Source: Desulfosarcinaceae bacterium (lineage in GTDB: Bacteria > Desulfobacterota > Desulfobacteria > Desulfobacterales > Desulfosarcinaceae). From it: DNA of 42,205 bases. Where the stretch lies: the NCBI GenBank assembly GCA_030066015.1, contig JASJCL010000053.1, forward strand, positions 1-42,205. The letters run 5' to 3'. Below the pieces are notes generated by a model. That model did no database searches, was not told the origin of the DNA, and worked only from the letters and a program-made list of their open reading frames with translations. The position numbers were made by a program, and so were the translations under genes. Each line of letters starts with the position of its first letter. Position 1 is the stretch's first letter. Positions 10,608-39,431 of the stretch are shown here, in pieces.

Positions 10608-12143
10608 ATGCTATCTCACGCCTTGCGTCATCTGGCCCTGCGCCTATGGCTGACGGTGGTCGTGGGGGGGTTGGGCAGCCTGGCGTTGGTGCCCCTGCTA
10701 CAGGCACTGATGGGGTTGGATTGGGTGGCCTTGCCGGTCTTCGGCTTCCTCGGGCTCGTGTTTTTGGGTATCGGCTGGGTACTCAACGCCTGGGCATCCC
10801 ATTTGGTTGAGCGCCTGCGCGCCGAGGCTGCTATCTGGGAACGGGCCGGCATGCGCCGCGAAGCCACCCAGCGCTATCAGGCGCTCGTAGGCGTGGTGGA
10901 CAGTTTCCTATTGTCGCCGGGTCGCCGTCGGCAGATGCTGGCCAAACTATTGCCCAAGCTGACCCGTTTTCACCTGGACCAGGATAGGCCGGGGCCGGTA
11001 CTGGATCGACTTTTACGGGCCCATTTAGAGATCCATCCAGGGGATGCCGCTATGGCGGTAAAATGGCTGCGGATTCAGATCGGCCGTCAAGATCCGCCCC
11101 CTTGGACCCATGAGCTGGCCCAGCAGATCGGCGAGGCCTCGTCGGATTCCGCGGATGTCACAGCCCTGCTGGTGCGTTTCTACCTCGCCAATGGCCGCAG
11201 CGATCACGCCGCCATCGATACCTACCGGCGCTGCTGGCGGTCGGTGCCTGACTTTCGCACCGCCAAGGCCGTGGCACTGGCCCAGTTGCTCAGTATGGAG
11301 GGTCATCGCAATCTCTGGGCCCTGGACGTTTACTTGACCGCCTGGTCCCAGGGCGCCCCTCAAGATCAGCTCGCCGCCGCTATCCGGCGCTGTGTGGCCG
11401 TCATCCGGCCAACCGAAGAGGGCCGCCCGCTTCTCGAGCAGGCGCGAGCGCTGCTGGGCCGGCAATTGCCCGCTTCCCAACCGCCGCCAGCGGCCCCCCC
11501 CAGAGTGTCGCAGCCATCTGACGAAGAGCGCCTCGATCCCTTCACCCTGGGAAGCGAGGCTGTCGCGCCTCAGGCGCCTTCGTCGGACGATACGGCGGCG
11601 GCATACCGCTACCGTCGCCGGCCGCGCTCGAGACCCGCAACGGAAACTTGGATCGCCCGGACCCGACGAGAGCTGGGCAGTCGTCTACTGGCCATTGGCC
11701 CCGGACTACGGCGAACGGGGCAATGGGCCCTCATCCAACTCCGCAGCACCTGGGGCAAGACGGCGGGCTTTGGGATTCTGGCCCTGGCCCTGATTGTACT
11801 GATCTCCAACACAGTGCAGCACCTGCAGCCTAGCCCCTCCGCACCGCCCCCCCCTGAGCCGGCCGCCGCGCCTGCGGTAACCGACCCCTTCACCATTCAG
11901 GTGGCCGCCTATCTCAAAGCAGAGGATGCCAGACGATATGCCGAGCGGTTAAAGGCCAATGGGCTCGATGCCTACTGGACAGAGGCGGTGGGGGCCAGTC
12001 GCAACTGGTATCAGGTCCGCATCGACCATTTCGCCACCAAGGCCGCAGCCCGTAAATTCGGACAGGATCTGAAAGCGAAAGGCCTCATCAACGATTTCTA
12101 TGTGGCCAACTATCGTCCACCCCAGCTGCCCGGGAAGAATTAG
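10608..12143 (+). CDS. Membrane protein with C-terminal SPOR domain
   Basis: The 511-residue protein has two N-terminal transmembrane helices (about 10-31 and 37-57), a helical cytosolic middle region (about 65-290) rich in Arg, Ala and Leu that could form TPR-like pairs, a basic linker, a third transmembrane helix (387-403) and a Pro/Ala-rich linker. A SPOR domain at 424-502 completes it (FTIQVAAYLKAEDARRYAERL ... WYQVRIDHF). SPOR domains bind denuded glycan strands at the septum, so the protein is likely to act in division or cell-wall assembly. GGAGGAAGG before ATG 10608 and a 2-nt gap to the PBP gene show co-translation. The three-helix layout, with a long N-terminal module before SPOR, differs from FtsN or DamX. 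Confidence 0.85.
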   Translation: MLSHALRHLALRLWLTVVVGGLGSLALVPLLQALMGLDWVALPVFGFLGLVFLGIGWVLNAWASHLVERLRAEAAIWERAGMRREATQRYQALVGVVDSFLLSPGRRRQMLAKLLPKLTRFHLDQDRPGPVLDRLLRAHLEIHPGDAAMAVKWLRIQIGRQDPPPWTHELAQQIGEASSDSADVTALLVRFYLANGRSDHAAIDTYRRCWRSVPDFRTAKAVALAQLLSMEGHRNLWALDVYLTAWSQGAPQDQLAAAIRRCVAVIRPTEEGRPLLEQARALLGRQLPASQPPPAAPPRVSQPSDEERLDPFTLGSEAVAPQAPSSDDTAAAYRYRRRPRSRPATETWIARTRRELGSRLLAIGPGLRRTGQWALIQLRSTWGKTAGFGILALALIVLISNTVQHLQPSPSAPPPPEPAAAPAVTDPFTIQVAAYLKAEDARRYAERLKANGLDAYWTEAVGASRNWYQVRIDHFATKAAARKFGQDLKAKGLINDFYVANYRPPQLPGKN

Positions 12144-27037: not shown

Positions 27038-27859
27038 TTAGATGCCGCTGGTATTCGACGCAATCGCTGCGTCGCCGGGCAGATCAAGCGGTTGGAAGAG
27101 GAGAATCCAATGGCTGCCTGCGGGTCCCGGTGCCAGCCGGGTGCCGGTGACGCGGTAGCGACCGGCGGCCAGGTTGATCTCAAGGTGCCAGAGCGGTTTT
27201 CGGGCATCGCGCGCGGCCGACAGGGCTTCCGTCACCTGTTCCGGCCACACACCGCTGCAGCCTTGACCGGCGAGGCGAGTCTGCAGGCCGGGGAAAAGTT
27301 CGACAGCAGCGGGGTTGCAGCGCATCAGCCGATCGCCGGCGTCGATGACCACCAAGGGGGCCGGCAGCTGATCGAGCACCTGGTGACAAGCCTGGTTTTT
27401 TCGGCTGGCCGCCAATGCTTCATGATATTTCAGGGCGTGGTAGAGTTCGAGCTTGAGGGCTTCCGAGTTCCAGGGTTTAAAGAGAAACTTGTAAACCTGG
27501 CCGTCGTTGATGGCCGCCATGATGGCCTCTTCGTCGGTATAGCCGGTCAAGATGACCCGCACCACATCGGGGTATAGCAGCTTCACCTGGAGAAGTAATT
27601 CGGTGCCCATCATATCCGGCATCCGCTGATCGCTGATCACCATCTGCACGGAGTGGGTTGCCAGCAGCTGCAAGGCCTCCATTGGGCTGGTGGTGGTGAG
27701 CACGTGGTAGGGCTCGTGATGAAGCACTCGTTTCAGGGCACTGAGAATGTTGGGCTCGTCATCGACGATGAGGACCGTCGGTCGCCCATCGGCCGAAGGA
27801 TGGGATGCGGATGGAAAAGCTTGCGGGTCCGCCAAACCCGCTTCTGTCAATTTGTTCAT
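27038..27859 (-). CDS. Response regulator with REC and PAS-like domains, no DNA-binding output
   Basis: The 273-residue protein has a receiver domain at about 28-145 (acidic pair in IVDDEPN, phosphoacceptor D77 in ISDQRMPDM, T105, K128 in FLFKPW). Its wording (VRVILTGYTDEEAIMAAINDGQVYKF) is typical of receivers attached to HD-GYP or EAL proteins. A PAS-like domain follows (about 150-255: LDQLPAPLVVIDAGDRLMRCNPAAVELFPG). No output domain follows, so it may act by protein contact. ATG 27859 is chosen because upstream sequence in this frame is Arg-rich and non-domain; the ribosome site (GGAAG) is modest. Confidence 0.85.
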   Translation of the reverse strand: MNKLTEAGLADPQAFPSASHPSADGRPTVLIVDDEPNILSALKRVLHHEPYHVLTTTSPMEALQLLATHSVQMVISDQRMPDMMGTELLLQVKLLYPDVVRVILTGYTDEEAIMAAINDGQVYKFLFKPWNSEALKLELYHALKYHEALAASRKNQACHQVLDQLPAPLVVIDAGDRLMRCNPAAVELFPGLQTRLAGQGCSGVWPEQVTEALSAARDARKPLWHLEINLAAGRYRVTGTRLAPGPAGSHWILLFQPLDLPGDAAIASNTSGI

Positions 27860-28443
27860 TGATCGCTTCCGCCGCTGCCGAAGCCGCATTCGCGGTTTTG
27901 GCAGCGGGCCACAGGTTCTTGGTTTTAAGGTTGCCGATGCTACCACTCTATATCGGCAATTTGCGCTGCAACATGATCGCTCCTCCCGTCTCGGCGACCC
28001 TTTTTCACCAATGACGTCTCGGGACGCTCCTCCCTTTTCTGCGACACCTTCCCTCCGCCGGATGCTGTTGGGATCGGTGTGATTGGCCGTCACTGCTGTG
28101 AGTGCCTATTGGGGGTTCCATGGTAGGGTGTTGCCATCACTCGTCCCTGCCGCCGTCTGAATCGCCAACGAATCCAAAACACTATGATTGAAGTTTGTTA
28201 CGATCCGAAGGGCACGTATTTTTACCCCAGCTTGCGGATGAAGGGGTTGTGACTATCTTCTTGCATGTTTCGATGGTGAATGCTTCAACGGGAGGTCCCA
28301 CTTGACGACAGAAAGTATTCGGGCAGACATACATTTACTTCCACAGCGTCGTGGAATTACTACCAGCATTTAAGAGGAATCCGCATCCGCTCACACAGCG
28401 ATGCGGGAAACCAATATTTTCCTCCAGACGAAAGGAAATCATC
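27860..28443. other. Intergenic region with possible sigma-28 site and inverted repeat
   Basis: About 580 bases without a convincing gene separate the divergent response-regulator and 63-residue-protein genes. An inverted repeat TTGCCGAT / ATCGGCAA occupies 27931-27938 and 27952-27959. Its right arm on the minus strand reads GCCGATAT, with TCAT 15 nt upstream (complement of 27973-27976), a weak flagellar-sigma match oriented towards the response-regulator gene. An isolated TTGACG at 28302-28307 lacks a good -10. Base composition here is less GC-rich than in neighbouring genes from about 28150 on. Confidence 0.4.
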
Positions 28444-28635
28444 ATGAACGCAAACCATGCGGAAGAGCTATATGTTAAGGTGAAAGATACGGATGGCGCT
28501 GAACTGGTGTGCCCCTACGATACCGTAACGGTAACGGGCCGTATCCGTGAGTCGGGCTTGGACGATTGCATCGAGCAGGAAGTGATCGGGCGATACGCCG
28601 GCAACATCAAGATCGTCGAGCCGCTGACACAGTGA
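28444..28635 (+). CDS. Small protein of 63 residues
   Basis: ATG 28444 follows AAAGGA at the right distance. The product is acidic, with a beta-strand-like pattern (ELYVKVKDTDGAELVCPYDTVTVTG) and two Cys, and no membrane segment. I do not recognise it. It precedes the FAD oxidoreductase gene by 261 bp and is on the same strand, but a promoter-like sequence and a structured leader lie between, so it need not share that operon. Confidence 0.65.
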   Translation: MNANHAEELYVKVKDTDGAELVCPYDTVTVTGRIRESGLDDCIEQEVIGRYAGNIKIVEPLTQ

Positions 28636-28643
28636 TGAACGGA

Positions 28644-28672
28644 TTTATCCTTTGGGCCAAGTGTGCTAAAAT
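28644..28672 (+). promoter_or_regulatory. Possible promoter of the lipid-modification genes
   Basis: TTTATC (28644-28649), a 17-nt spacer and TAAAAT (28667-28672) form a candidate sigma-70 promoter with a good -10 and a weak -35. It would start transcription some 25 nt before the large hairpin at 28703-28780. Confidence 0.35.
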
Positions 28673-28702
28673 AGATCCAGATCGCCCTGGACGGCACACA
28701 GG

Positions 28703-28780
28703 GCCGCAGCAACCGCGATGTCGCCTCGGGCCCTGCACCGATGATTTGGCGGTGCGCGGACACATCGCGGTCGCTGCGCC
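28703..28780 (+). promoter_or_regulatory. Strongly structured leader upstream of the FAD oxidoreductase gene
   Basis: GCAGCAACCGCGATGT (28706-28721) is complementary to ACATCGCGGTCGCTGC (28762-28777) at 15 of 16 positions, and the pairing can extend outward by two or three GC pairs. It encloses an inner hairpin, GCACCG (28735-28740) with CGGTGC (28750-28755). No T-tract follows, so it is not an ordinary terminator. It lies about 115 bp upstream of the next start codon. It could be a regulatory RNA element, a protein-binding site or a REP-like palindromic element; I match it to no known riboswitch. Confidence 0.55.
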
Positions 28781-28896
28781 AATTGTCGCATATTCTCGCT
28801 CCTATCACTCTACTGCACCTCACCTGTTCGTCCACTACCAACGGACGGAACTGGTGGGGACTGTTTCTTTCACGCTAACATAGGAGACGGTCATCC

Positions 28897-30159
28897 ATGC
28901 GTATCGCCATTGTCGGTGGCGGTGTGGCCGGCATCGTTGCCGCTCACTTGCTTCAGCGTAAATTCCACGTTTCCCTTTTCGAAAAAAACGATTACGTCGG
29001 TGGACACACCCACACCATCGTCGTACCGAGCGGACCGGATACCGGAACGCCGGTGGACACGGGATTCATCGTCTTAAACGATCGCACCTACCCCATTTTG
29101 AACCGCTTTTTCGATGCTCTTGACGTCACCTTACGCAAAAGCGACATGTCTTTCAGCTTCTACGACGAGAACACCGGCCTGCAATACGCCAGCAGCAACC
29201 TCAACACGCTCTTCGCCCAACGACGCAACCTGTTGGATCCCGGCCACTGGCTCATGTTGGCTGAAATTCTGCGTTTTAACCGACGCGTCCTGACCGGTTT
29301 GGATGGCGGGTGGCTGGACGCGCTAACACTGGGCGACTTTCTGATGCGCTACCGGTTCTCCGACCGGCTTCGGGATCGTTATCTTTACCCACTGGTCGCC
29401 GCCATCTGGTCCGCGCCCGATCTGGAAGTGGCGCAGTTCCCGATGCTCACCTTTGCGCGCTTCTTCAGCAATCATGGACTGCTGAGCATCTTTCGGCATC
29501 CGCAGTGGTACTTCGTGGCCGGTGGCAGCCACGCCTATGTCGACGCCTTTCGCAGTCGTTTCCGCGGGGACGTCTTCACCGAAGTGCCCATCGTGGAGAT
29601 CATCCGCACCCAGGCTGGCGTCGTGCTCCGGGATGAGGCGGGAGAGCAACACGCTTTCGACCGGGTCGTGGTGGCCACCCATGCCGACGAGGCCCTGCGT
29701 CTGCTGAACGACCCTTCCGAAGCGGAACGCCGTCTGCTCGGGGCTTGGCGCTACAGCGTCAATGAAACCATCCTGCATACGGATCTGCGCTGGATGCCGC
29801 CCAGCCAGCGGGCGTGGGCCTCTTGGAACGTTATTCGCGGCCGGGGGGCCGTCGTCGAGGCCCCCGTCACCCTCACCTACCACATGAATCGTCTGCAACA
29901 ACTAGACACCCGACGGCAATACCTGGTAACGCTGAATCCGTTCCGGCCCATCGATCCAGACCACATTATTGCCCGGATGATCTATACCCACCCGATCTAT
30001 GATTTCGAGAGCCTCAACACACAGACTGACCTTCCCAACCTGAACGGCGTCCGCAACACCTTTTTCTGCGGTAGCTATTTCGGCTATGGATTCCACGAAG
30101 ACGCCGCCCGATCGGGCGCCCAGGCTGCCGTCGCCATGGGGGTATCGGATGAATTCTAA
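28897..30159 (+). CDS. FAD-dependent amine-oxidase-like oxidoreductase of the cyclopropane-synthase cluster
   Basis: The 420-residue flavoprotein has the N-terminal dinucleotide-binding motif IAIVGGGVAGIVAAHLL (residues 3-19) and the second FAD-contact motif GGHTHTI. It has the layout of the NAD(P)-binding amine-oxidase/desaturase-like family usually found beside DUF1365 and cyclopropane-fatty-acid synthase genes. Related proteins in that setting have been linked to desaturation or oxidation of modified fatty acyl chains; the exact reaction here is inferred, not shown. There is no signal peptide. TAGGAGA precedes ATG 28897. Its end overlaps the DUF1365-CFA gene by 11 bp, so translation is coupled. 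Confidence 0.9.
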   Translation: MRIAIVGGGVAGIVAAHLLQRKFHVSLFEKNDYVGGHTHTIVVPSGPDTGTPVDTGFIVLNDRTYPILNRFFDALDVTLRKSDMSFSFYDENTGLQYASSNLNTLFAQRRNLLDPGHWLMLAEILRFNRRVLTGLDGGWLDALTLGDFLMRYRFSDRLRDRYLYPLVAAIWSAPDLEVAQFPMLTFARFFSNHGLLSIFRHPQWYFVAGGSHAYVDAFRSRFRGDVFTEVPIVEIIRTQAGVVLRDEAGEQHAFDRVVVATHADEALRLLNDPSEAERRLLGAWRYSVNETILHTDLRWMPPSQRAWASWNVIRGRGAVVEAPVTLTYHMNRLQQLDTRRQYLVTLNPFRPIDPDHIIARMIYTHPIYDFESLNTQTDLPNLNGVRNTFFCGSYFGYGFHEDAARSGAQAAVAMGVSDEF

Positions 30160-32134
30160 ACTCTACACCGGCCATGTGACCCATGAACGCTTCCATCCCG
30201 TTCGCCACTATCTCCGCTATCCGCTCTACGTCTACGCGTTTGACCTGGCCGAACTGGCCGCCCTGGACCGCCGCCTGCCCCTGTTTGGGACCAATCGCAG
30301 GCGTCCGGTATCCCTACATGACCAGGATTACCTGGCCCCGCGGGCGGGCAGCATCCGAGACAAATTGCTGGAACAGGTGGCGATCCATCTGCCCGCCGAA
30401 ACGGTCGCGCGGATCGTCATGGTGACCTCGCCACGGCTCATGGGGTACAGCTTTAATCCGGTGAGCTTTTACTACTGCTTCTCATCCGAAGACCGTCTGT
30501 TGGCCGCGGTGGCAGAAGTGAATAACACCTTCGGCGAAAAGCACATCTATGTCCTCCCGGTTGCCCGTCCCAACGGGAACGGCTTTCCCGCCCGCTTCGA
30601 GGCAAAAAAGGCGTTTCACGTATCGCCCTTCAACACCATGGGGGGAACCTATCACTTCTCCTTCGCCGACATCCGACGCGAACTCGATATCGCCATCGAC
30701 CTCTACCGCGACGGCAACCACATCCTCAACGCCCGTCTGCAGGGTGTTCCACGCACCCTCACCGCATTGAACCAGGTCAAAACGCTGCTGCGCCACCCCG
30801 TGCTGCCGCTGTTGACCATTCCCAGGATCTATCGGGAGGCCTTCAAGCTGCGCTTCAGACGCAACCTCAGCTACCACGACAAACCGGTCCCCCGACATGC
30901 CATGACGATCCGTCGACTGCCGCCAACCGGTTTTCAGCGCTGGTGCCGCCGGTTGACGCTGCGGCATCTGGGCCGCGCCAACACGGGCGATCTCAGCATC
31001 ACCCTGCCGGACGGCCGCCAGCACCGTTTCGGTCGAACCGGTACAGAACCGCGGGCGCAGCTGATGGTCAATGACCACCGCTTCTTCTCCCGGGTCGTAC
31101 TGGAAGCGGATATCGGTCTGGGGGAGGCCTACATGCACGGGGAATGGGATACCGAGGATATTCCCGCCGTGCTGAGCTGGTTTATTCGGAACCGCGGGAC
31201 GCAAAAAGATGGCCGGTTCAGAGAATCTCTGCTCAACCAATTGCTGGAAAAGCTGCGCTTTTTAAGCCGGGCCAACACCGTGATGGGAAGCCGCCGCAAC
31301 ATTCGGCAGCACTACGATCTCTCCAACGACTTTTTCCAAACCTTCCTCGATGAGACCATGGCTTACTCCTGCGCCATCTTCGATCATCCCGAGGAGCGGC
31401 TGGAGACAGCCCAGCTGCGCAAGTTCCGCGCCATCATTGACAAGGCGCGCCTCTCCGCGTCGGATCATCTGCTCGAGATCGGCTGCGGTTGGGGCGGCTT
31501 CGCCATGGAGGCGGTGCGGCGCACCGGCTGCCGGGTGACCGGCATCACCATCTCGCGCGAGCAGTTCGAACTGGCCCGCGAACGGGTCCGCCGGGCAGGA
31601 CTCCACGACCGCATTCACATTCTTTATCAGGACTATCGCAAGATCGAGGGGCGCTTTGACAAGATTGTCTCCATCGAGATGCTCGAAGCGGTGGGGCACG
31701 CCTACTTCGGCGCCTTCTTCAATCAGTTGGACCGGCTGCTGGCACCGGACGGCATCGCCGTCCTCCAGACCATCACCATTCCCGATCAGCACTACGAGGT
31801 GTACCGCAGATCCCACGACTGGATTCAGAAGCATATCTTCCCCGGGGGGCTGCTGCCTTCGCTGACCATTTTGGCCCAGACAATGACCCGCCGCAGTCGT
31901 CTCATGATCGACCACGTCGAAAACATCGGCAATCACTATGCGACCACTTTGGCACGCTGGCGGCGGCGCTTCGACGCCAACCGCGACACGGTGGCCCGGC
32001 TGGGTTTCGACCGCGTGTTCCGACGGAAATGGCGCTATTACCTCGGCAGCTGTGAGGCCGGCTTCCGCACCCGCGTGCTGGGAAATCTTCAACTGGTGTT
32101 GACCCGGCAGGGCAATCGGCGGCTGATGGAGTGA
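30149..32134 (+). CDS. DUF1365-cyclopropane-fatty-acid synthase fusion protein
   Basis: The 661-residue protein joins two modules that are usually separate neighbouring genes. Residues 1-235 are a DUF1365 domain (KLYTGHVTHERFHPVRHYL, MGYSFNPVSFYYC, EVNNTFGEKHIYVL). Residues about 255-661 are a CFA-synthase/mycolic-acid-methyltransferase-type enzyme with ETMAYSCAIFD (active-site region, C408), the SAM motif LLEIGCGWGGFAMEAV (441-456) and SIEMLEAVGHAYF. The C-terminal module should transfer a methyl or methylene group from SAM to an unsaturated phospholipid acyl chain. DUF1365 has no settled activity. ATG 30149 inside the previous gene has GGGGGTATCGG upstream; the frame stays open to 30086. 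It is convergent with the SRPBCC-SDR gene, with 2 bp between stops. Confidence 0.92.
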   Translation: MNSKLYTGHVTHERFHPVRHYLRYPLYVYAFDLAELAALDRRLPLFGTNRRRPVSLHDQDYLAPRAGSIRDKLLEQVAIHLPAETVARIVMVTSPRLMGYSFNPVSFYYCFSSEDRLLAAVAEVNNTFGEKHIYVLPVARPNGNGFPARFEAKKAFHVSPFNTMGGTYHFSFADIRRELDIAIDLYRDGNHILNARLQGVPRTLTALNQVKTLLRHPVLPLLTIPRIYREAFKLRFRRNLSYHDKPVPRHAMTIRRLPPTGFQRWCRRLTLRHLGRANTGDLSITLPDGRQHRFGRTGTEPRAQLMVNDHRFFSRVVLEADIGLGEAYMHGEWDTEDIPAVLSWFIRNRGTQKDGRFRESLLNQLLEKLRFLSRANTVMGSRRNIRQHYDLSNDFFQTFLDETMAYSCAIFDHPEERLETAQLRKFRAIIDKARLSASDHLLEIGCGWGGFAMEAVRRTGCRVTGITISREQFELARERVRRAGLHDRIHILYQDYRKIEGRFDKIVSIEMLEAVGHAYFGAFFNQLDRLLAPDGIAVLQTITIPDQHYEVYRRSHDWIQKHIFPGGLLPSLTILAQTMTRRSRLMIDHVENIGNHYATTLARWRRRFDANRDTVARLGFDRVFRRKWRYYLGSCEAGFRTRVLGNLQLVLTRQGNRRLME

Positions 32135-32136
32135 GC

Positions 32137-33558
32137 TCAGGACGGCAACGGCGGGAGACCCAGCATCGTATCCAGCGCGTGGATCAGTTCTCGCTGTGCC
32201 GCCATGGTGGTGCGGGTTTTTCCAAAAACATGGGTCGCGCGAAGCTTTCGGTCCAGCCAGAAACGCCCGGAAGCGCGCTGGGCGTCCGGCGCGGCAGCCA
32301 GCCAGACGATGGTGTCGGCGCCCTGGGAGGGGCTCCGCAGCCACGCCGAGACCTGATGGTAGAATTTTGGGAGAGCGTCGGCAAGACCGGGCGTATCGAC
32401 CCAACCCGGATGCATGGCATGCACACCGATCCCCTCCGAAGCGAGCGCTTTGGCCAGATGCTGTGTGAGTATGACCAGGCCTCGTTTGGCGCGTGCGTAG
32501 GCGGTGGGCCCGTCATGGCCGACCGCATTGGGGACCAGCATGTCGGCCCGCATCGCCTGCGTGTACATACCGCCGGAGGCCACGTTGATGATCCGTGCTG
32601 CGCCGGCCGCCGTCAGGGATGGCTCCAGCAGACGCGAGAGAAGGTAGGGGCTGAGCAGATCGGTGGCCATGGTCATTTCGATGCCTTCCGCATTCAATTG
32701 AAAGCGGTTGAACATGGCACCGGCGTTGTTGATGAGCACATCGATCTTCCGGTAACGACGGGTGAGGCGATCGGCCAGCTCGCGCACCTCGCCCATACGG
32801 CTCAGATCCGCCACCTCGGTATGAATCTCCCCGCCGCCGCTTTTCCCCATCTCCTCAACCAAATTGGACAATTTCTTCGCGTTCCGACCGACCACCACCA
32901 ACTGAACGCCTAACCGATACAGGGAGATCGCCGCCGCTTTGCCGATGCCGGAAGTGCCGCCGGTGAGCACCATGGTCCGTCCCCGATAAAGCTGCGAGGC
33001 CACCGGCCGCCGGTGTCGGGCCGCTAAAAATCCCAGACGCGTGAACCCGATCAGACCGGGCAGAATGGTCCTGTCCGCCATGCGGGTCCAAGCGGTCAGT
33101 TGCGGCGGCCGCGAGGACCCTGTCAGCATGCGCTGCAGGCGATCCACCGCCTTGGCCGCATATCCGGCGAAGAGGCGTTTGCCGGCGTGGTGCGCCAAAA
33201 AGCCGGGATCTCGGTCAAACCGCACGTTGGCATCATAGGTCAGGCGGGTTCCGGAAGCGATCGCGTCGAGGCGGATACGATCCTCCACCTGAAAAGTTTC
33301 CCCGCGGCCCGCCAGCGTCAGCGCATGCGGCGGGTCGCTGGCGGTGATGGTGTAGGTCATGGGAATTCGTCGCCATCCCAATCGCACCCGGAGGCGGTAG
33401 CGACTGCCCGCGGCTGGCGGACCGCTGTCAAGTTTGCGGGCGCTGACGACCCCGGGATCCCACTCCTCCACGTACTCCCAGTGGTTGAGGTAGTCGAAAA
33501 CGGTCGCGACGGGTTGGGCAATCTCGATATGTCTTGTCTCTTGCCAGTGTCTCTCCAT
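32137..33558 (-). CDS. SRPBCC-short-chain dehydrogenase fusion protein
   Basis: The 473-residue protein has an SRPBCC (START-like, polyketide-cyclase type) lipid-binding fold at about 5-145 (HIEIAQPVATVFDYLNHWEYV) and an SDR domain at about 190-470. The SDR part has the cofactor motif TGGTSGIG (199-206), NNAG (277-280), catalytic S328 and Y354-x3-K358 (YARAK). The Asn of the catalytic tetrad, usually in a TNHLG-like segment, is replaced: the sequence reads TDLLSPYLL near 299-307. Reduction or oxidation of a hydrophobic carbonyl or alcohol held by the SRPBCC part is a fair inference. The start ATG 33558 is the first in frame, with only a weak ribosome site. A promoter candidate lies at 33621-33649. 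Confidence 0.88.
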   Translation of the reverse strand: MERHWQETRHIEIAQPVATVFDYLNHWEYVEEWDPGVVSARKLDSGPPAAGSRYRLRVRLGWRRIPMTYTITASDPPHALTLAGRGETFQVEDRIRLDAIASGTRLTYDANVRFDRDPGFLAHHAGKRLFAGYAAKAVDRLQRMLTGSSRPPQLTAWTRMADRTILPGLIGFTRLGFLAARHRRPVASQLYRGRTMVLTGGTSGIGKAAAISLYRLGVQLVVVGRNAKKLSNLVEEMGKSGGGEIHTEVADLSRMGEVRELADRLTRRYRKIDVLINNAGAMFNRFQLNAEGIEMTMATDLLSPYLLSRLLEPSLTAAGAARIINVASGGMYTQAMRADMLVPNAVGHDGPTAYARAKRGLVILTQHLAKALASEGIGVHAMHPGWVDTPGLADALPKFYHQVSAWLRSPSQGADTIVWLAAAPDAQRASGRFWLDRKLRATHVFGKTRTTMAAQRELIHALDTMLGLPPLPS

Positions 33559-33620
33559 AGGGCAATCGCTTTCTGATGGATGGTAGGCAGTACCTATCTA
33601 TACGACCCCAAACTTAACCC

Positions 33621-33649
33621 ATTTTCAGAACATGCATGTCGCTTGTCAA
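33621..33649 (-). promoter_or_regulatory. Possible promoter of the SRPBCC-SDR gene in a divergent region
   Basis: On the minus strand TTGACA (complement of 33644-33649), a 17-nt spacer and GAAAAT (complement of 33621-33626) form a candidate promoter about 65 bp upstream of the start. The same 166-bp region must also hold the promoter of the divergent chalcone-isomerase-like gene. TATAT and GATAGT near 33670-33681 are possible -10 elements, but I find no matching -35. Confidence 0.42.
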
Positions 33650-33724
33650 ATGCGACGCACGAGCTAGCTTATATGGATAGTAAGCTTTGCACGCCGACCA
33701 AATTTGCAATGGGGGAATGAGCAT

Positions 33725-34291
33725 ATGAAATCAATCACCGTCTATCTTTTGGCCACACTCGTTGTTTTCGCGCCGCCCCTCTCTGTCGCCGCCGTGGATG
33801 TGGAGGGGGTTCGATTTGACGCCAGCGTTGATGTCGGCGGCCAACAATTGGAACTCCATGGTACCGGTTTGCTCAGGTATATGGTCTTTATCCGCGCATA
33901 TGTCGGCGCCCTCTACCTGGAGAGCCCAGTACCGTCGGAGCAGGTGCTGGGGCCGGTTGCCAAGCAGCTGGTGCTGGAGTACTTCCACCCCATCAAAAAA
34001 GAGGATTTTGCCAAGGCGACCCGCAAAAAGATCGCCGACAATCTCAGTCCAGCGGAATTGGCGGCCCTGTCACCCCGAATCGAAGAGCTGGCCAACCTTT
34101 ACCAAGATGTGAAGCCGGGGGACCGCTATGCGCTCACCCATGTTCCCGGAGAGGGGGTTGACCTCTCCCTCAACGGGCAGTGGTTGGGTAGAGTCGATGG
34201 CGATGATTTCGCCCGCGCGGCTTTTGCCATCTGGCTGGGCGCCAACCCCATCGACACCCGCTTCAGGGATCAGCTCCTGGGGGATGCATGA
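33725..34291 (+). CDS. Exported chalcone-isomerase-like protein
   Basis: The 188-residue protein has a signal peptide (hydrophobic stretch about 6-22, likely cleavage after VAA near 24), followed by a chalcone-isomerase-like domain of the bacterial Chalcone_3 type. Typical segments are LHGTGLLRYMVFIRAYVGALYL near the start, KQLVLEYFHPIKKEDF in the middle, and LTHVPGEGVDLSLNGQ towards the end. Bacterial members lack a proven isomerase reaction and are often thought to bind fatty acids. ATG 33725 is preferred over ATG 33704 because it gives a clean signal peptide and has GGGGGAATGAG upstream. The stop overlaps the MFS start by 4 bp (ATGA), so the two are coupled. Confidence 0.85.
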   Translation: MKSITVYLLATLVVFAPPLSVAAVDVEGVRFDASVDVGGQQLELHGTGLLRYMVFIRAYVGALYLESPVPSEQVLGPVAKQLVLEYFHPIKKEDFAKATRKKIADNLSPAELAALSPRIEELANLYQDVKPGDRYALTHVPGEGVDLSLNGQWLGRVDGDDFARAAFAIWLGANPIDTRFRDQLLGDA

Positions 34292-35679
34292 CCGGTTCTC
34301 GCCCGACAGGCACCGCCCTCTCGCGGGACCTGAAGATCGCCTATGGATTGCCAGCTTTCGCGCTGGCGGTGGTGGGTATTCCCATCTATGTCCATCTTCC
34401 CAAGTTCTACACCGACGTCGTCGGCCTCAACATCAGCTGGGTGGGCGCCATTCTCATGTCGGTGCGCGTGTTGGACGCGTTTACCGACCCTCTCATGGGC
34501 GTTATCTCAGACCACTTCCGCAGTCCCATGGGACGTCGGCGACCCTTTATCCTCTGGGGCAGCCTCTGTCTCGCCGCGGCCATGTTTTTGCTGTTTGTGC
34601 CACCCGCCGGTGCGGTCGGTTCGAGTCATCTTTGGTTCGGGGTTACCATCGTCGCACTCTTCTTTTGCTGGACGGTGGTGACAGTCCCCTATGAAGCGCT
34701 GGGGCCGGCATTAACGCCGGACTACACCGAGCGGACCGCCCTCTTTGCACTGCGTGACGGGCTGCTGATCGCCGGTACGCTCGTGGCGGCCGCCTCGCCG
34801 GCCATCATCGAAGCGCTGCAGTCGGATCCGGGAGCGAATGCCGCTCAACGGCAGAAGTTTTTCTGGATTGCTTTGGCCTACACCCCCCTGCTGATCGGCA
34901 CCTGTCTCTGGTGCGTCCATCGTATTCGTGAGCCGCAGCAGACTAAGCAGGAGGCGCCGGTGCCGGCCCTGCGCGACCTCAAGGGCGTGTTGCGCAATCG
35001 CCCCTTCCGAATTCTCCTCTTCTCCTATACAATCGCCGCCATCGGCAGCAATCTGCCGGCGACCTTGATCCTCTTCTACGTCCAATATGTTCTCCAATCG
35101 GAGTTGGCCAACCTCTTCCTTCTGCTCTATTTCGCTGCCGGGATCGTGATGCTGCCCGCGTGGATACGGCTCGCCCGGCAGATGGGCAAAAAGAACGCCT
35201 GGTTGCTCTCAATGGCGGTCAACACCTGCGCCTTCAGCGGGGTTTTTTTCCTCGGCGCCGGTGATGAATGGCAGTATGCGACCCTGGTGGTGCTGTCCGG
35301 TATGGGCTTTGGTGCCACATTGGCGCTGCCCTCGGCCATCCAGGCCGATGTGATCGACTATGACGAATTTCTCACCGGCAGCCGTCAAGAAGGCTGGTAT
35401 ATCGGTATCTGGTCCGTGGTGAAGAAGCTCACCGCCGCCCTCGGCGTGGGAATCGGTCTGACCGTTCTGGGCATGGCGGGATATCTGCCCGGCGAGGATC
35501 AACCGCCCGCCGTCATCCAAGCGCTGAAGGTGCTCTACGCGCTCGTCCCCAGCCTCTGTAACGTGGCTGCCTTCTGCGTCGCTTTGGCCTATCCCATCTC
35601 CCAGCAGGCCCATCAGCGTATTCAGACGGGCATCGCCCTCCGAAGCAGAGGCGAGGCCGTGCCCGACCCGCTCTCATGA
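34288..35679 (+). CDS. MFS transporter of the GPH (MelB-like) type
   Basis: The 463-residue integral membrane protein has about 12 transmembrane segments. It shows the GPH signature: LDAFTDPLMGVISDHFRS early in the first half, RRRPFILWG in the loop after helix 2, and QADVIDYDEFLTGSRQEG in the second half. MelB relatives use sodium or proton symport for glycosides, but this subgroup sits beside cyclopropane-synthase-type genes in many genomes and its substrate is unknown; a lipid or lipid-derived compound is possible. It is translationally coupled to the chalcone-isomerase-like gene. Confidence 0.9.
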   Translation: MTGSRPTGTALSRDLKIAYGLPAFALAVVGIPIYVHLPKFYTDVVGLNISWVGAILMSVRVLDAFTDPLMGVISDHFRSPMGRRRPFILWGSLCLAAAMFLLFVPPAGAVGSSHLWFGVTIVALFFCWTVVTVPYEALGPALTPDYTERTALFALRDGLLIAGTLVAAASPAIIEALQSDPGANAAQRQKFFWIALAYTPLLIGTCLWCVHRIREPQQTKQEAPVPALRDLKGVLRNRPFRILLFSYTIAAIGSNLPATLILFYVQYVLQSELANLFLLLYFAAGIVMLPAWIRLARQMGKKNAWLLSMAVNTCAFSGVFFLGAGDEWQYATLVVLSGMGFGATLALPSAIQADVIDYDEFLTGSRQEGWYIGIWSVVKKLTAALGVGIGLTVLGMAGYLPGEDQPPAVIQALKVLYALVPSLCNVAAFCVALAYPISQQAHQRIQTGIALRSRGEAVPDPLS

Positions 35680-35912
35680 TCCCCCGACCGCCGGCAAGCG
35701 TCGGGCCCGGCGCAACTTTCCTGAGCGGCACTTCGTGGAGGATATGGCGACGGCAACAAGTGGGTCGTGTGGTCTACTATGATGAGTTTTTATATCACTA
35801 ACCTATCACTTCGCCCCCATTGCATCTCTTTCCGAAGTGGCAAGTTTACCTTGAAATGGCGGCACCAGGACTGCCTGGAATCGTCTTCATGCCTCAGGAG
35901 TGGTGAATAGGA

Positions 35913-36407
35913 ATGAACAGAGACACGACCGGAACGCTCATGCAATATGTCGTCGCCATCGGCGTTTTTTTTATTGTGGATCTCATTTGGATTGGCTGGG
36001 TCGCCGCCGACTTTTACGCACGCCACGTTGGCGGCATGCTGCGCGAATCGGTCCACTGGGGTGCGGCGCTATCTTTCTACGCACTCTACATCGGCGGCAT
36101 CGTGCATTTCGTGCTCATGCCAGCAGCTGCCCAGCGCGCTGGCCTGTGGCAAACCGCTCGATCGGGAGGGCTGCTGGGATGTTTCGCCTACGGCACTTTC
36201 AACCTGACCGCCCTGGCGCTTCTCGACGGCTGGTCAGCGACCGTAACGGTGGTGGATATGATCTGGGGAACCTTCCTGACAGGGGGGACCGCCGCCGCCA
36301 CACTTTGGATTACGAATCAAATGCTTCCATCTAATTTGGTGACACGCTCGCCAGCAAGGAGGAAATCGCATGGACACACGAATGGAAGAAGTGTTGACGC
36401 ACATTGA
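35913..36407 (+). CDS. DUF2177 family membrane protein
   Basis: The 164-residue protein has four predicted transmembrane segments (about 12-30, 47-68, 84-104, 112-134). The typical DUF2177 wording is present: FFIVDLIWIGWVAADFY, a charged first loop and GCFAYGTFNLTALALLDGW. The function is not known. DUF2177 genes recur next to cyclopropane-synthase and FAD-oxidoreductase genes, which fits this island. ATG 35913 has an imperfect ribosome site (AGGAG 13 nt upstream, ATAGGA just before). Its last 38 bp overlap the next gene. Confidence 0.85.
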   Translation: MNRDTTGTLMQYVVAIGVFFIVDLIWIGWVAADFYARHVGGMLRESVHWGAALSFYALYIGGIVHFVLMPAAAQRAGLWQTARSGGLLGCFAYGTFNLTALALLDGWSATVTVVDMIWGTFLTGGTAAATLWITNQMLPSNLVTRSPARRKSHGHTNGRSVDAH

Positions 36408-36708
36408 GAATGCCTACAAAGAGAAAATGCAGCCGGGCGCCCGGCACTACATGGAGGTCAGTCTCGCCGACACGGCCCGCAAACTGGGCTATGCGGATAT
36501 CGGGGAGTGCTACCGCACGGCGGCCGCCATTATTCCCTTGAAACAGCCCCAGGACGGGATGAAAGTGCGCATCGACGGACGCACCTTTGTCAACTACGCC
36601 GAATTTGGATCGGGGATGGCCGTTCCCGGTTATTTCGCCAGCGCGTCCGGCCGAAAATTCCGTACCTTCATCCCCATGGACAGCATGATTTGCAATTTCT
36701 GCGAATAG
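36370..36708 (+). CDS. Small soluble protein of unknown family, overlapping the DUF2177 gene
   Basis: The 112-residue product has no membrane segment. An N-terminal helical part (about 1-55) is followed by a strand-rich part, and a C-terminal pair of Cys in MICNFCE. A strong ribosome site, AAGGAGG, lies 7 nt before ATG 36370, inside the DUF2177 gene, and the 38-bp overlap in another frame indicates co-translation. I do not recognise the family. Its membership in the island is inferred from position only. Confidence 0.75.
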   Translation: MDTRMEEVLTHIENAYKEKMQPGARHYMEVSLADTARKLGYADIGECYRTAAAIIPLKQPQDGMKVRIDGRTFVNYAEFGSGMAVPGYFASASGRKFRTFIPMDSMICNFCE

Positions 36709-36778: not shown

Positions 36779-38983
36779 TCACATCCTCTGTGTCGCCGCC
36801 GGGTCCGTCTCGCCCAGGGTCACGATACCCAGATAGCCATCCACCGTAATCTGTTGACCGGTGCGGATGCGGTCCGTCGCCGCCACCACGCCGGTCACGC
36901 AGGGCAGGCCGTACTCCCTGGCGATGATGGCCCCGTGAATCAGCATGCCACCGCGTCGCTCCACGATGCCGGCCGCCAGCGGCATGACGAAGGTCATGTT
37001 GGGATCCACGCCATCGCAGACGATGATCTCCCCCTTCTTGAAATTGGCGATATCCGCGTGCCGCTGGATCACCCGCGCCCGTCCGCGGGCCAAGCCGGGC
37101 CCGGCAGGCTGGCCCGTAATCTGACGGTCCACCACCAGCGGCGGTGGAGTGGTAGCACTGCGCGACGGGGTCTCCCTGTCGCGCTCCAGACCGAGTTCGG
37201 TGAGTGTTTCGGCGACCTCTTCGCTGCCAGCGGCGGCACGACGGCGTCCCTCCTGGGCCGCTGCGATCAACTGGGCCTCGATGGCCCCCAAAATGATGTT
37301 GTCATCGTCTCTCAGTCGATAGCTTGCCCGTGCCACGGAGAGTAGGGCACGGCAATCCTCGGCCGACGCCAGCGGGCAAGCCTGAAAGAATTCCGATTCC
37401 AGTTCTGCGGTCGCCCCCTCCTTCTGTGAAGGGGAATTTTCTTTGGGCAGCTTGGCCATCTCCAGCAGCAAATTGGGCAGGGTGGCATCGTCCGGGATGC
37501 AATCGACCGCACCGGTCACCGTGCAACTCAGGTCGCCATAGGTGCGGATGAAGGCCTCGAGGGATCGGCGAAACGGTCCATCCAATGCCGCCCGGCCGCC
37601 CGCCGCCAGCGCCTCGCGCCGCTCGGGATGGTCCCGTAATCCGTCGGCCAGCCGCGCCAAGGCGCGGTTGCGCTGCAGACTGAGCAGGTCCTGGTTCTTG
37701 AGGAGGGTCATGAAGGCGTATGGATCCTCGGGTTGCATCACCTCATTGTAAATCTGGCCGAACAGCCGCATGCCGTGGGCAAAGGGAATGAAGTCGTCCC
37801 AGTAGACCTTGGCCCAACGCTGGTTGATCTCCCATCGGCGCCGGATCTCCGCGGCCAGGGCCGTGTCGTCGAATCCTTTTGGATCCATGGCGGCCATCTC
37901 CTGCGCCGCTGCCTGCATCCCTGGAATGAGGTCGGTCTCAATGTGCTGCCGCAGCGTCAGCAGATTCTCCAGACTGCGGTGGAGGCTGAGATACCAGGCG
38001 CGTGGATCGCTGTCGCCGTTGGCCGATGGGGCGGCCGCCGTGATGGGTCTGGCTTGCAGCAGCACCAGACGATCGTTGCAGAAGGTCCACTCGATATCCT
38101 GAGGAGTGCCTTCCCGTTCGGCCAGCGTGCGACCCGTCTCCCACAACGTGGCCAGCTGGGATTCGTTTAGCGGCGGCTGCTTCTGCAGTTTCGGTGGCAG
38201 CGGTGTCAGCGCATCCGCTGCCGTCAGGTCCCGCGGGGATTGCCATCGGTCGCGGGTTTCGGGGGCCGTATGGTCGATGGGGGTGCCGCTGCGCGCGTCG
38301 ATGATCCAGCGGTCCGGCGAGATTTTGCCATCCACCAGGGGGGGATTGAGTCCGTGCACCGCTTCGACGATGCCCTGCTGTGGCCGGGTGGGATCCTGGG
38401 TGAAGAGAATTCCAGAGGCCTCACCGGCGACCAGGGACTGTACCAGTACCGCCATGGCGCTGGTGGCCGTATCCAATCCCAATTCCTGGCGGTAGAGCAG
38501 GGCGGCGTCGGACCACAAGGAGGCCCATACCATTCGGAGGTGTTGAATCACCGGCGCAACGCCGCGCAGGTGGGTATAGGAGCTGTGTAGACCGGCAAAG
38601 CTGTGCCCGCTGCGATCCTCCTCAGGGGCCGAAGAGCGAACGGCCACCGGCGCATCGCCGAAGGTCACCGCCACCGCCGCTGCCAATTCCCGCTCCAGCG
38701 CCGGTGGCATGGGGGAGCGCAGAAACATGAGCCGGATACGCTGGGACGCATCCCACACCTCCTCCCAGCGCATCTGGGTGAAGACCTTGCGGTGAAGCTC
38801 GAGATGGATCTTCTCGCGCAGCCCGGCGTGTTCGATAAAATCGCGGTAGGCGCGGGTGGTGATGCAGAGGGTTGTTGGTACGCGCAGCCGATGCGTCCGC
38901 AGTCGGAAAAGCGCCGCGCCTTTGCCGCCGATCTCCTCCGGCCTTCCGGCCGGTAGATGTTCAAGCGCTGTGATCCAGGTCAT
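36779..38983 (-). CDS. PEP-synthase-like phosphotransferase without the PEP/pyruvate barrel (RPH-like layout)
   Basis: The 734-residue protein has a PPDK_N ATP-grasp region at about 10-330 (GGKGAALFRL, VAVRSSAPEEDRSGHSFAG, GILFTQDPTRP, DIEWTFCNDRLVLLQARPI). A long helical middle region covers about 340-610, and a C-terminal swivelling phosphohistidine domain has H683 in GGMLIHGAIIAREYGLPCVTG. The TIM-barrel PEP/pyruvate domain of true PEP synthase is absent. This three-part order is that of rifampicin phosphotransferase, which moves the beta-phosphate of ATP to a small molecule through the His. The substrate here is unknown. ATG 38983 overlaps the flavoprotein gene by 23 bp, so the two are one operon. 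Confidence 0.85.
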   Translation of the reverse strand: MTWITALEHLPAGRPEEIGGKGAALFRLRTHRLRVPTTLCITTRAYRDFIEHAGLREKIHLELHRKVFTQMRWEEVWDASQRIRLMFLRSPMPPALERELAAAVAVTFGDAPVAVRSSAPEEDRSGHSFAGLHSSYTHLRGVAPVIQHLRMVWASLWSDAALLYRQELGLDTATSAMAVLVQSLVAGEASGILFTQDPTRPQQGIVEAVHGLNPPLVDGKISPDRWIIDARSGTPIDHTAPETRDRWQSPRDLTAADALTPLPPKLQKQPPLNESQLATLWETGRTLAEREGTPQDIEWTFCNDRLVLLQARPITAAAPSANGDSDPRAWYLSLHRSLENLLTLRQHIETDLIPGMQAAAQEMAAMDPKGFDDTALAAEIRRRWEINQRWAKVYWDDFIPFAHGMRLFGQIYNEVMQPEDPYAFMTLLKNQDLLSLQRNRALARLADGLRDHPERREALAAGGRAALDGPFRRSLEAFIRTYGDLSCTVTGAVDCIPDDATLPNLLLEMAKLPKENSPSQKEGATAELESEFFQACPLASAEDCRALLSVARASYRLRDDDNIILGAIEAQLIAAAQEGRRRAAAGSEEVAETLTELGLERDRETPSRSATTPPPLVVDRQITGQPAGPGLARGRARVIQRHADIANFKKGEIIVCDGVDPNMTFVMPLAAGIVERRGGMLIHGAIIAREYGLPCVTGVVAATDRIRTGQQITVDGYLGIVTLGETDPAATQRM

Positions 38984-39431
38984 GGGCAATCCGATACTCG
39001 CTCACGTTTTGAAATCGTTCCACCAGGATGTAGCGATCCACGCGGATATCCACGAGGACGCAGCTGGGCGAATGGGCAAAGTCCTCCAGGTAGGGATGGC
39101 GTGCCAGGTACTGCCCTCGGACATGGTCCAGCTCCGGCGGGGATACCGCTTCGGCGATCCCCACCGCTGTAACAGCGGCGGCTTGGTGAAAGTCTTCGGG
39201 ATCGTTGATGCTGTTGTTGATCAGAAGGGCTACGGCTGCGTTGGCCGTGATGTTGGCGAATTTGCGGGTGGTTCTCGGTGTGACGAAATAGAGGTGGTGG
39301 CCGTCTCCCGAGGCCGCAAACGCCACCAGACTGGCGTAGGGCCCTTTCTCACCGACGGTAGAGAGCACTCCGAGCTGCTGATGGCGCAGCAGATCCAGAA
39401 CGGCTTGACGGGTCGTTTCCTCTTGGGGCAT
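38961..39431 (-). CDS. Pyridoxamine 5'-phosphate oxidase-like (PPOX) flavin-binding protein
   Basis: The 156-residue protein has the split-barrel pattern of small PPOX-fold proteins: LGVLSTVGEKGPYASLVAFAASGDGHHLYF, then TRKFANITANAAVALLI and a C-terminal basic strand. It should bind FMN or F420 (or heme in some relatives) as a dimer. The specific reaction is not deducible; the family includes reductases and stress proteins. AAGAGGTCAGG precedes ATG 39431. It is the first gene of a two-gene operon with the PEP-synthase-like protein. Confidence 0.85.
   Translation of the reverse strand: MPQEETTRQAVLDLLRHQQLGVLSTVGEKGPYASLVAFAASGDGHHLYFVTPRTTRKFANITANAAVALLINNSINDPEDFHQAAAVTAVGIAEAVSPPELDHVRGQYLARHPYLEDFAHSPSCVLVDIRVDRYILVERFQNVSEYRIAHDLDHSA

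Follow-up and report, generated by a model that had tools for sequence, protein, structure and literature searches.

A candidate furan fatty acid gene island with a fused UfaO-UfaM protein in a Desulfosarcinaceae bacterium

In Rhodobacter, furan fatty acids give protection from singlet oxygen, and molecular oxygen (O2) is needed for two of the bacterial pathway steps described there. This raises the question of what such a pathway would make without O2 when a conserved, fused version of it is carried by sulfate reducers and by other lineages taken as anaerobic. The question is posed by a stretch of 42,205 nucleotides (nt) from a Desulfosarcinaceae bacterium (assembly GCA_030066015.1, contig JASJCL010000053.1; hereafter the window, meaning the whole stretch analysed), in which an island of genes at positions 28,444 to 36,708 encodes proteins that, judged by homology, are very probably UfaD, UfaO and UfaM, the last two joined in a single polypeptide. 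In Rhodobacter sphaeroides, the cyclopropane-fatty-acid-synthase-like (CFA-like) enzyme UfaM (RSP2144) is reported to make a methylated monoene, which UfaD (RSP1091) and UfaO (RSP1090, a DUF1365 protein) convert to a methylated furan fatty acid, and in Rhodopseudomonas palustris the genes are ordered ufaD-ufaO-ufaM (RPA2571-2570-2569); the passages available from this source equate DUF1365 with UfaO where it has been tested experimentally (PMC7380195). The genes of the island are listed below by their positions in the window.

28897..30159, plus strand: UfaD-like FAD oxidoreductase of 420 amino acids (aa); Pfam Amino_oxidase, 80.7 bits, and NAD_binding_8, 55.1 bits
30149..32134, plus strand: UfaO-UfaM fusion, 661 aa; Pfam DUF1365 at residues 5-247 (246.9 bits) and CMAS at 382-644 (293.5 bits)
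32137..33558, minus strand (convergent): SRPBCC (START-like)-SDR fusion, 473 aa; Pfam Polyketide_cyc2 and adh_short
33722..34291, plus strand: chalcone-isomerase-like (CHI-like) protein, 189 aa; Pfam Chalcone_3, 135.6 bits
34288..35679, plus strand: MFS_2/GPH-type transporter, 463 aa; Pfam, 315.8 bits; TIGR00792, 262.3 bits (cut-off 231.35)
35940..36407, plus strand: DUF2177 membrane protein; Pfam, 121.6 bits
36370..36708, plus strand: 112-aa protein, a probable member of the island; matched by no Pfam or NCBIfam model

A first-pass annotation, made from the letters of the window, had described a lipid-modification island akin to gene sets tied to light or singlet-oxygen responses and had named furan acids as one kind of product; this likeness was borne out by the finding of ufaD-ufaO-ufaM homologues in the known order. 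All eight domains that it listed (FAD oxidoreductase, DUF1365, CFA-type methyltransferase, SRPBCC, SDR, CHI-like, MFS and DUF2177) are present; there are two fusions, as it stated, and these, DUF1365 with CMAS and SRPBCC with SDR, each form one open frame and are both kept in other genomes; and the SDR is convergent as stated, since the SRPBCC-SDR gene lies on the minus strand, tail-to-tail with the UfaO-UfaM fusion, their stop codons 2 nt apart. The ufaD and fusion genes overlap by 11 nt. Its claim of a non-standard gene order had to be given up, as Desulfosarcina widdelii and its relatives share this order: D. widdelii PP31 (L002) and L121 have it complete with DUF2177, and L003 (with one extra open reading frame, ORF), L005, L021 and L027 have it with DUF2177 out of reach. 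An order peculiar to the window was therefore rejected.

Two collections of loci were compared with the island. For the named loci, the best 80 of 117 were taken; 12 of these 80 are without a UfaO match, leaving 68. The class set comprises 291 genomes, a sample of a larger group, and contains 87 places with DUF1365, of which 80 regions were used besides the window, with G201, G005, G254, G234, G281 and G127 left out; 27 of these 80 regions are shorter than 15 kb, so that the counts of neighbouring genes are lower bounds. At least five contigs, matched by their length, occur in both sets (L126/L036, L130/L021, L131/L003, L157/L004 and L160/L027); these were dropped from the 131-row tree described below and kept in the totals over all loci (residues at the His266 position, neighbours, SRPBCC and MFS residues).

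Membership in the furan fatty acid family is indicated by a UfaD-type FAD enzyme lying beside a DUF1365 protein, an arrangement found in the island. Of 155 loci, 150 share it, with ufaD as the gene immediately before ufaO and transcribed in the same direction. The nearest solved relative of UfaD is the amine oxidase LkcE (1e-41). In UfaO, positions invariant over 58 sequences, and so by definition common to the 30 fused and 28 split forms among them, include His12, Arg14, Asn126, Thr127, Tyr134, Lys154, Ser159 and Tyr168. An AlphaFold model of UfaO (pLDDT 87) has many strands and two C-terminal helices; a Foldseek search of it against solved structures returned no match at E <= 0.001, and a second structural comparison pointed to nitrobindin-type and fatty-acid-binding-protein-like barrels, the best match being a nitrobindin domain (3ia8; Z 6.8, rmsd 4.3, 135 residues) that lies below the tool's informative level and is too weak to name the fold. 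The whole UfaO-UfaM fusion was modelled with a pLDDT of 88 and a pTM of 0.81.

Of the 68 named loci that have a UfaO match, 31 encode DUF1365 and CMAS in a single frame, and UfaO and UfaM are fused in 24 of the 80 class regions; the sulfate-reducer class thus holds both fused and split forms. By their record titles, which can be wrong for metagenome-assembled genomes (L030 is titled Bifidobacterium breve), the 31 named fused loci include 12 Desulfobacterota types, five Spirochaetota, two Kiritimatiellae, one Lentisphaerae and one Synergistales, along with two Acidobacteria, four Actinomycetota types, one titled Bifidobacterium and one Burkholderia seminalis; 21 of the 31 come from lineages taken as anaerobic, a term that is read here from lineage names. 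On a FastTree tree of UfaD, UfaO and UfaM (131 rows), five changes between fused and split forms were counted, against a shuffled mean of about 41, the count applying to that tree, which has a support of 72 at its deepest split and gave long-branch warnings; L021/L130 was scored as split because of a change of frame inside UfaM. The nearest named relative of the window in this tree is D. widdelii, and among the best 80 of 117 loci the identity to the fusion protein is 72% for D. widdelii and 75%, over the best segment, for the Olavius algarvensis Delta 4 endosymbiont. The second fusion accompanies the first: SRPBCC lies within 9 kb of UfaO in 19 of 24 fused class regions versus one of 56 split regions, that one being L130, and is in one frame with SDR in all 27 matches (contig duplicates included).

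The kind of methyltransferase joined to UfaO bears on what the pathway might produce. Bicarbonate is held in Escherichia coli Cfa by Glu239, His266 and Tyr317, as reported in PMC11387697. The methyltransferase half of the fusion keeps Glu239, followed by Ala, and Tyr317, and has Gln at the position of His266, so that the canonical ligand set is incomplete in the window. Gln occupies this position in all 52 rows that could be scored among the 56 fused ones and in 72 of the 74 that could be scored among the 77 adjacent ones, the two exceptions, L068 and L075, having His; His is found in 35 of 41 other methyltransferase copies of these loci. The EAVG/Gln signature also occurs in UfaM of the annotated clusters L082, L083, L084, L086 and L087, and it is on this feature, common to the annotated ufaD-ufaO-ufaM clusters compared (RSP2144 and RPA2569 were outside that comparison), that the label "CFA synthase" given in the first pass was corrected to membership of the UfaM subfamily. 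A canonical cyclopropane synthase was considered and not adopted, given the replacement of His266 by Gln. Within the host genome the fusion is the sole strong CMAS match (296 bits), the next reaching 33 bits. A Halomonas ufaM taken from a consecutive ufaD-ufaO-ufaM set is reported to give 11-methyloctadec-12-enoate in E. coli (PMC12089945).

The core might nevertheless yield a methyl-branched or cyclopropane chain only, with UfaD and UfaO acting as a reductase or helper and no furan being formed. The methyltransferase half is, after all, a CMAS protein that keeps Glu239 and Tyr317, and cotton cyclopropane synthases carry Gln or Ile at the His266 position, so a cyclopropane function may go with the Gln type too; 10-methyl acids are, moreover, described as typical of Desulfobacteraceae (PMC7791843). 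The 10-methyl route of those bacteria, however, is the tmpBA operon, whose TmpA is geranylgeranyl-reductase-like rather than of the amine-oxidase type and for which the available passages of that source describe no DUF1365, and DUF1365 has been UfaO where tested (PMC7380195). No geranylgeranyl-reductase-like model is found among the Pfam and NCBIfam families of the FAD enzyme of the island, and a tmpBA operon was likewise considered and set aside, this enzyme being amine-oxidase-type. A core that ends at a methyl-branched or cyclopropane chain appears improbable to us, and whether a furan would be the end product is, on the genes, an evenly poised matter.

Other methyltransferases were seen in these loci. 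A second CFA-like methyltransferase with His266 and Phe268 occurs in L090-L094, L096 (e.g., at 11422, minus strand), L098-L100 and others, as well as in Shinella L086 and B. anthina L083; Phe is at 268 in 20 of the 41 other methyltransferase copies, and DUF1295 genes are present in 32 of the 80 class regions. The Syntrophaceae/delta-type loci L029 and L031-L035 have a close stand-alone UfaM-type methyltransferase (52-56% identity), and the stretch examined contains neither a UfaO nor a UfaD match.

The host, which we take to be a sulfate reducer near Desulfosarcina, is represented by an assembly of 5.7 Mb containing dsrA (595 bits, cut-off 393; none of 14 control genomes exceeded the cut-off), and a second match of the dsrA search adjoins it. 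Two genes for cytochrome bd oxidase subunit I in the same genome indicate that the organism can meet O2. The puzzle lies in the requirement for O2 of the pathway as described in Rhodobacter, where the diene is reported to form only with O2 and the furan oxygen to derive from O2 (PMC7380195), set against a fused gene set that is kept in lineages taken as anaerobic.

To reconcile the two, the island may be read as an acyl-chain-modifying pathway of UfaM, UfaD and UfaO combined with a lipid-handling module. UfaD would dehydrogenate the methylated monoene to a conjugated methyl-diene, and the UfaO part of the fusion protein would close the furan ring. A methyl-branched monoene could be made without O2 and the antioxidant furan finished once O2 reaches the cell; O2 itself would act as the switch and make a regulator responding to light or singlet oxygen unnecessary. 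The CHI-like protein and the MFS_2 symporter, with DUF2177, may bind and carry a lysolipid or fatty acid of the pathway. The switch is proposed because UfaD-dependent diene and furan formation need O2 in Rhodobacter. We infer every reaction, the O2 switch and the cargo from the genes, and consider this the best explanation as a whole, with an even chance of being right; the switch on its own is held somewhat more tentatively, and a lipid cargo more tentatively still.

The regulators described beside related clusters were sought with models seeded from annotated clusters. Sigma factor and ChrR matches were found in none of the 80 class regions and not in the tested region of the window, and the same models recovered ChrR in four named loci and four of six plasmid loci (three of these being seeds) and sigma in seven named and five plasmid loci. 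MerR likewise gave none of 80, a weak test in that its model matched only its own seed, L082, and all three models would miss a regulator of another family. A photolyase model matched five of the 80 class regions and had no match on the window, with two photolyase-family matches elsewhere in the host genome, on contigs C126 and C115. The regulator and photolyase had earlier been called absent, and this stands for sigma and ChrR in the tested region of the window and for photolyase on the whole window; as a peculiarity of the window it falls, since sigma and ChrR were matched in none of the 80 class regions, 27 of them under 15 kb.

An alternative to waiting for O2 is chemistry that does without it, UfaD passing electrons to a quinone or low-potential carrier and UfaO-UfaM making another product, or a furan whose oxygen comes from elsewhere. 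It draws on the 21 fused named loci from Desulfobacterota, Spirochaetota, Lentisphaerae, Kiritimatiellae or Synergistales and on the loss of UfaO His132 in some fused sequences (given below). Furan fatty acids have reportedly been found in Dehalococcoides (White 2005). A table row likewise reports them in this strict anaerobe (PMC6222795). The invariant UfaO residues are, however, identical in fused and split types, favouring the same chemistry; the host has its two bd oxidases; and fused forms also occur in Actinomycetota-type metagenome-assembled genomes and one Burkholderia. We favour waiting for O2 and regard O2-independent chemistry as unlikely. A fuller version, in which strict anaerobes run UfaD and UfaO without O2, the coupled UfaO-UfaM protein makes a furan or some other modified acyl chain with another electron acceptor or oxygen source, and a CHI-like carrier serves this pathway in lysolipid or fatty-acid transport together with an MFS_2 symporter whose sugar site is gone, seems to us improbable.

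The genes downstream of the core follow it across the class. Of its 291 genomes, 85 have DUF1365, 58 DUF2177 and 139 Chalcone_3; DUF2177 is found in 50 of 85 DUF1365-bearing genomes versus 8 of 206 others (Fisher 8e-25) and Chalcone_3 in 62 of 85 versus 77 of 206 (Fisher 2e-8). Where DUF2177 and DUF1365 share a contig, 26 of 29 places have them at most 13 kb apart. In a 60-genome sample, MFS_2 matches above 200 bits, a line chosen after the match list had been viewed and including one partial match (G039), occur in 12 of 15 DUF1365 genomes versus 3 of 45 others (1e-7). Within 9 kb of UfaO, the 80 class regions hold MFS in 38, CHI-like in 26 and DUF2177 in 23, and a CHI-like gene is directly upstream of 37 of 55 MFS matches over all loci. 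The 112-aa protein occurs in 66 of the 291 genomes (43 of 85 with DUF1365 versus 23 of 206 without); in 7 of 80 class regions it is encoded no more than 9 kb from UfaO. Its gene adjoins DUF2177 in the window and in at least G195, G097, G095 and G091. Beyond the class, the core has CHI-like, MFS or DUF2177 neighbours in Spirochaetia (L014, L017), Burkholderiaceae, Ectothiorhodospiraceae and a ChrR-linked Qingshengfaniella plasmid cluster. The MFS, CHI-like and DUF2177 genes are therefore no addition of this lineage: they stand beside the core in annotated aerobe clusters, some of them ChrR-linked. In L085, a Qingshengfaniella alkalisoli plasmid, a ChrR-linked set runs ufaD-ufaO-MFS-DUF2177, with no ufaM in the stretch examined.

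The neighbourhood comparison that the first-pass annotation had called for, between these three genes and the FAD, DUF1365 and CFA genes, thus gave co-occurrence far above chance, and the refuting outcome that it had named did not arise; of its suggestion that eight genes form a set, the association stands, but a fixed set of eight does not, since the parts act as modules: in G026 the CHI-MFS pair and DUF1365 are separated by about 120 kb, and in G034 they are on different contigs. An exported lipid-binding-type protein paired with a transporter, as it had proposed, fits a CHI-like gene whose product has an N-terminus resembling, by eye, a signal peptide and which overlaps the MFS_2 gene by 4 nt.

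The transporter passes the GPH family model and keeps Asp55 and Asp59, which we take to be the cation site of MelB, as do all 53 sequences compared; MelB Lys377 is also invariant in 53 of 53. The MelB residues presumed to bind sugar, Asp19 and Asp124, are both missing: the first position is Ala in 51 and Val in two (Ala in the window, Asp in none), the second has another residue in at least 50 of 53, namely Thr (as in the window), Ile, Asn, Val or Ser, and the position of Trp128 is Glu in 44 of 53. A sugar symporter was considered and not adopted on these grounds. We infer a cation-coupled carrier of non-sugar cargo, for which the gene context tentatively suggests a lipid. The CHI-MFS-DUF2177 module could instead have a job of its own, such as sugar or solute uptake, and lie beside the lipid genes through shared regulation or history. 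The GPH match, MelB as the nearest solved relative, and the detached pairs in G026 and G034 are in keeping with that; the replaced MelB residues, the occurrence of MFS_2 and DUF2177 with DUF1365, and the same neighbours of the core in Spirochaetia and Pseudomonadota speak against it, and we judge a separate job rather unlikely.

Several observations weigh against a furan pathway that awaits O2 and is served by a lipid-handling module. Fused forms occur in genomes of Syntrophus, Spirochaetia, Kiritimatiellae and Synergistales type, and contact with O2 may be rare for some of these. In UfaO, His132, otherwise near-invariant, is replaced by Leu in 6 of 30 fused sequences, and Asp60 and Arg96 are altered in 2 of 30. 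Gln at the His266 position is also found in 12 of 12 copies from loci without a UfaO match, and so marks the subfamily rather than the operon. In R. sphaeroides, the furan acid is reported not to require the three further genes in the ufaD-ufaO operon (PMC7380195). Many genomes that lack DUF1365 have CHI-like genes, 77 of 206 in all; the transporter, besides passing TIGR00792, aligns better with MelB (3e-30) than with MFSD2A (1e-19); and the Fisher tests and co-occurrence counts ignore kinship.

The remaining features lie at the edges of the island.

27038..28093, minus strand: response-regulator gene ahead of the island; matches in other loci at about 30%
28444..28635, plus strand: 63-aa ORF, separate from ufaD; matched by no Pfam or NCBIfam model
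36779-39431, minus strand: overlapping PNPOx and PPDK_N/PEP-utilizer (736 aa) genes, beyond the 112-aa gene

Relatives of the 63-aa ORF were found in five other ufa regions (L142, L133, L143 and L098 at E 1e-8 or better; L110 at 3e-4). Homologues of PNPOx and of PPDK_N/PEP-utilizer are found no more than 9 kb from UfaO in 18 and 14, respectively, of the 80 class regions, as raw counts taken without a background rate.

Judged by listings and passages, with subscription journals mostly outside reach, no description of this island in sulfate reducers was found in the literature; where furan fatty acids and sulfate-reducing were joined, the furan term appeared, in the text available, only in reference lists or one table, and the listing for the combination of CHI, DUF2177, photolyase and MFS held nothing on point. 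The island supplies candidates for the genes behind furan lipids in anaerobes, as well as a transporter/CHI-like/DUF2177 module beside a known lipid pathway.

Several known systems resemble parts of the island. The transporter shares the Pfam family MFS_2 with MelB and MFSD2A and retains the MelB cation-site residues Asp55 and Asp59, but differs from MelB at Asp19, Asp124 and Trp128. The tmpBA operon for 10-methylpalmitate in Desulfobacteraceae, bacteria related to the host, also combines a flavoprotein with a CFA-like methyltransferase, but places the methyltransferase gene first, has a geranylgeranyl-reductase-like TmpA, and names no DUF1365 in the passages available (PMC7791843). A protein with DUF1365 followed by a methyltransferase domain has been on record since 2008, when DUF1365-OMT of the sulfate reducer Desulfococcus oleovorans Hxd3 was tabulated; the entry, by which alone it is compared here, gives neither function nor neighbours (PMC2613160). 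Enzymes of the same pathway are likewise joined in the Arabidopsis protein AtUFAMD1, which is reported to unite UfaM with UfaD and leave UfaO separate (PMC10940516), whereas the window unites UfaO with UfaM. The light/singlet-oxygen clusters that carry sigma/ChrR or MerR and photolyase, with L082, L085 and L087 as annotated examples, combine UfaD and UfaO, usually with UfaM, and variously with SDR, CHI-like, MFS and DUF2177; the island differs in having no photolyase, sigma or ChrR match, nor one to the weak MerR model, and in an SDR that is fused to SRPBCC and convergent. Closest is the UfaD-UfaO-UfaM pathway of R. sphaeroides and R. palustris, homologues of whose three enzymes stand here in the R. 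palustris order, with the differences that UfaO and UfaM form one protein, the host is a presumed sulfate reducer, and sigma and ChrR were not found nearby.

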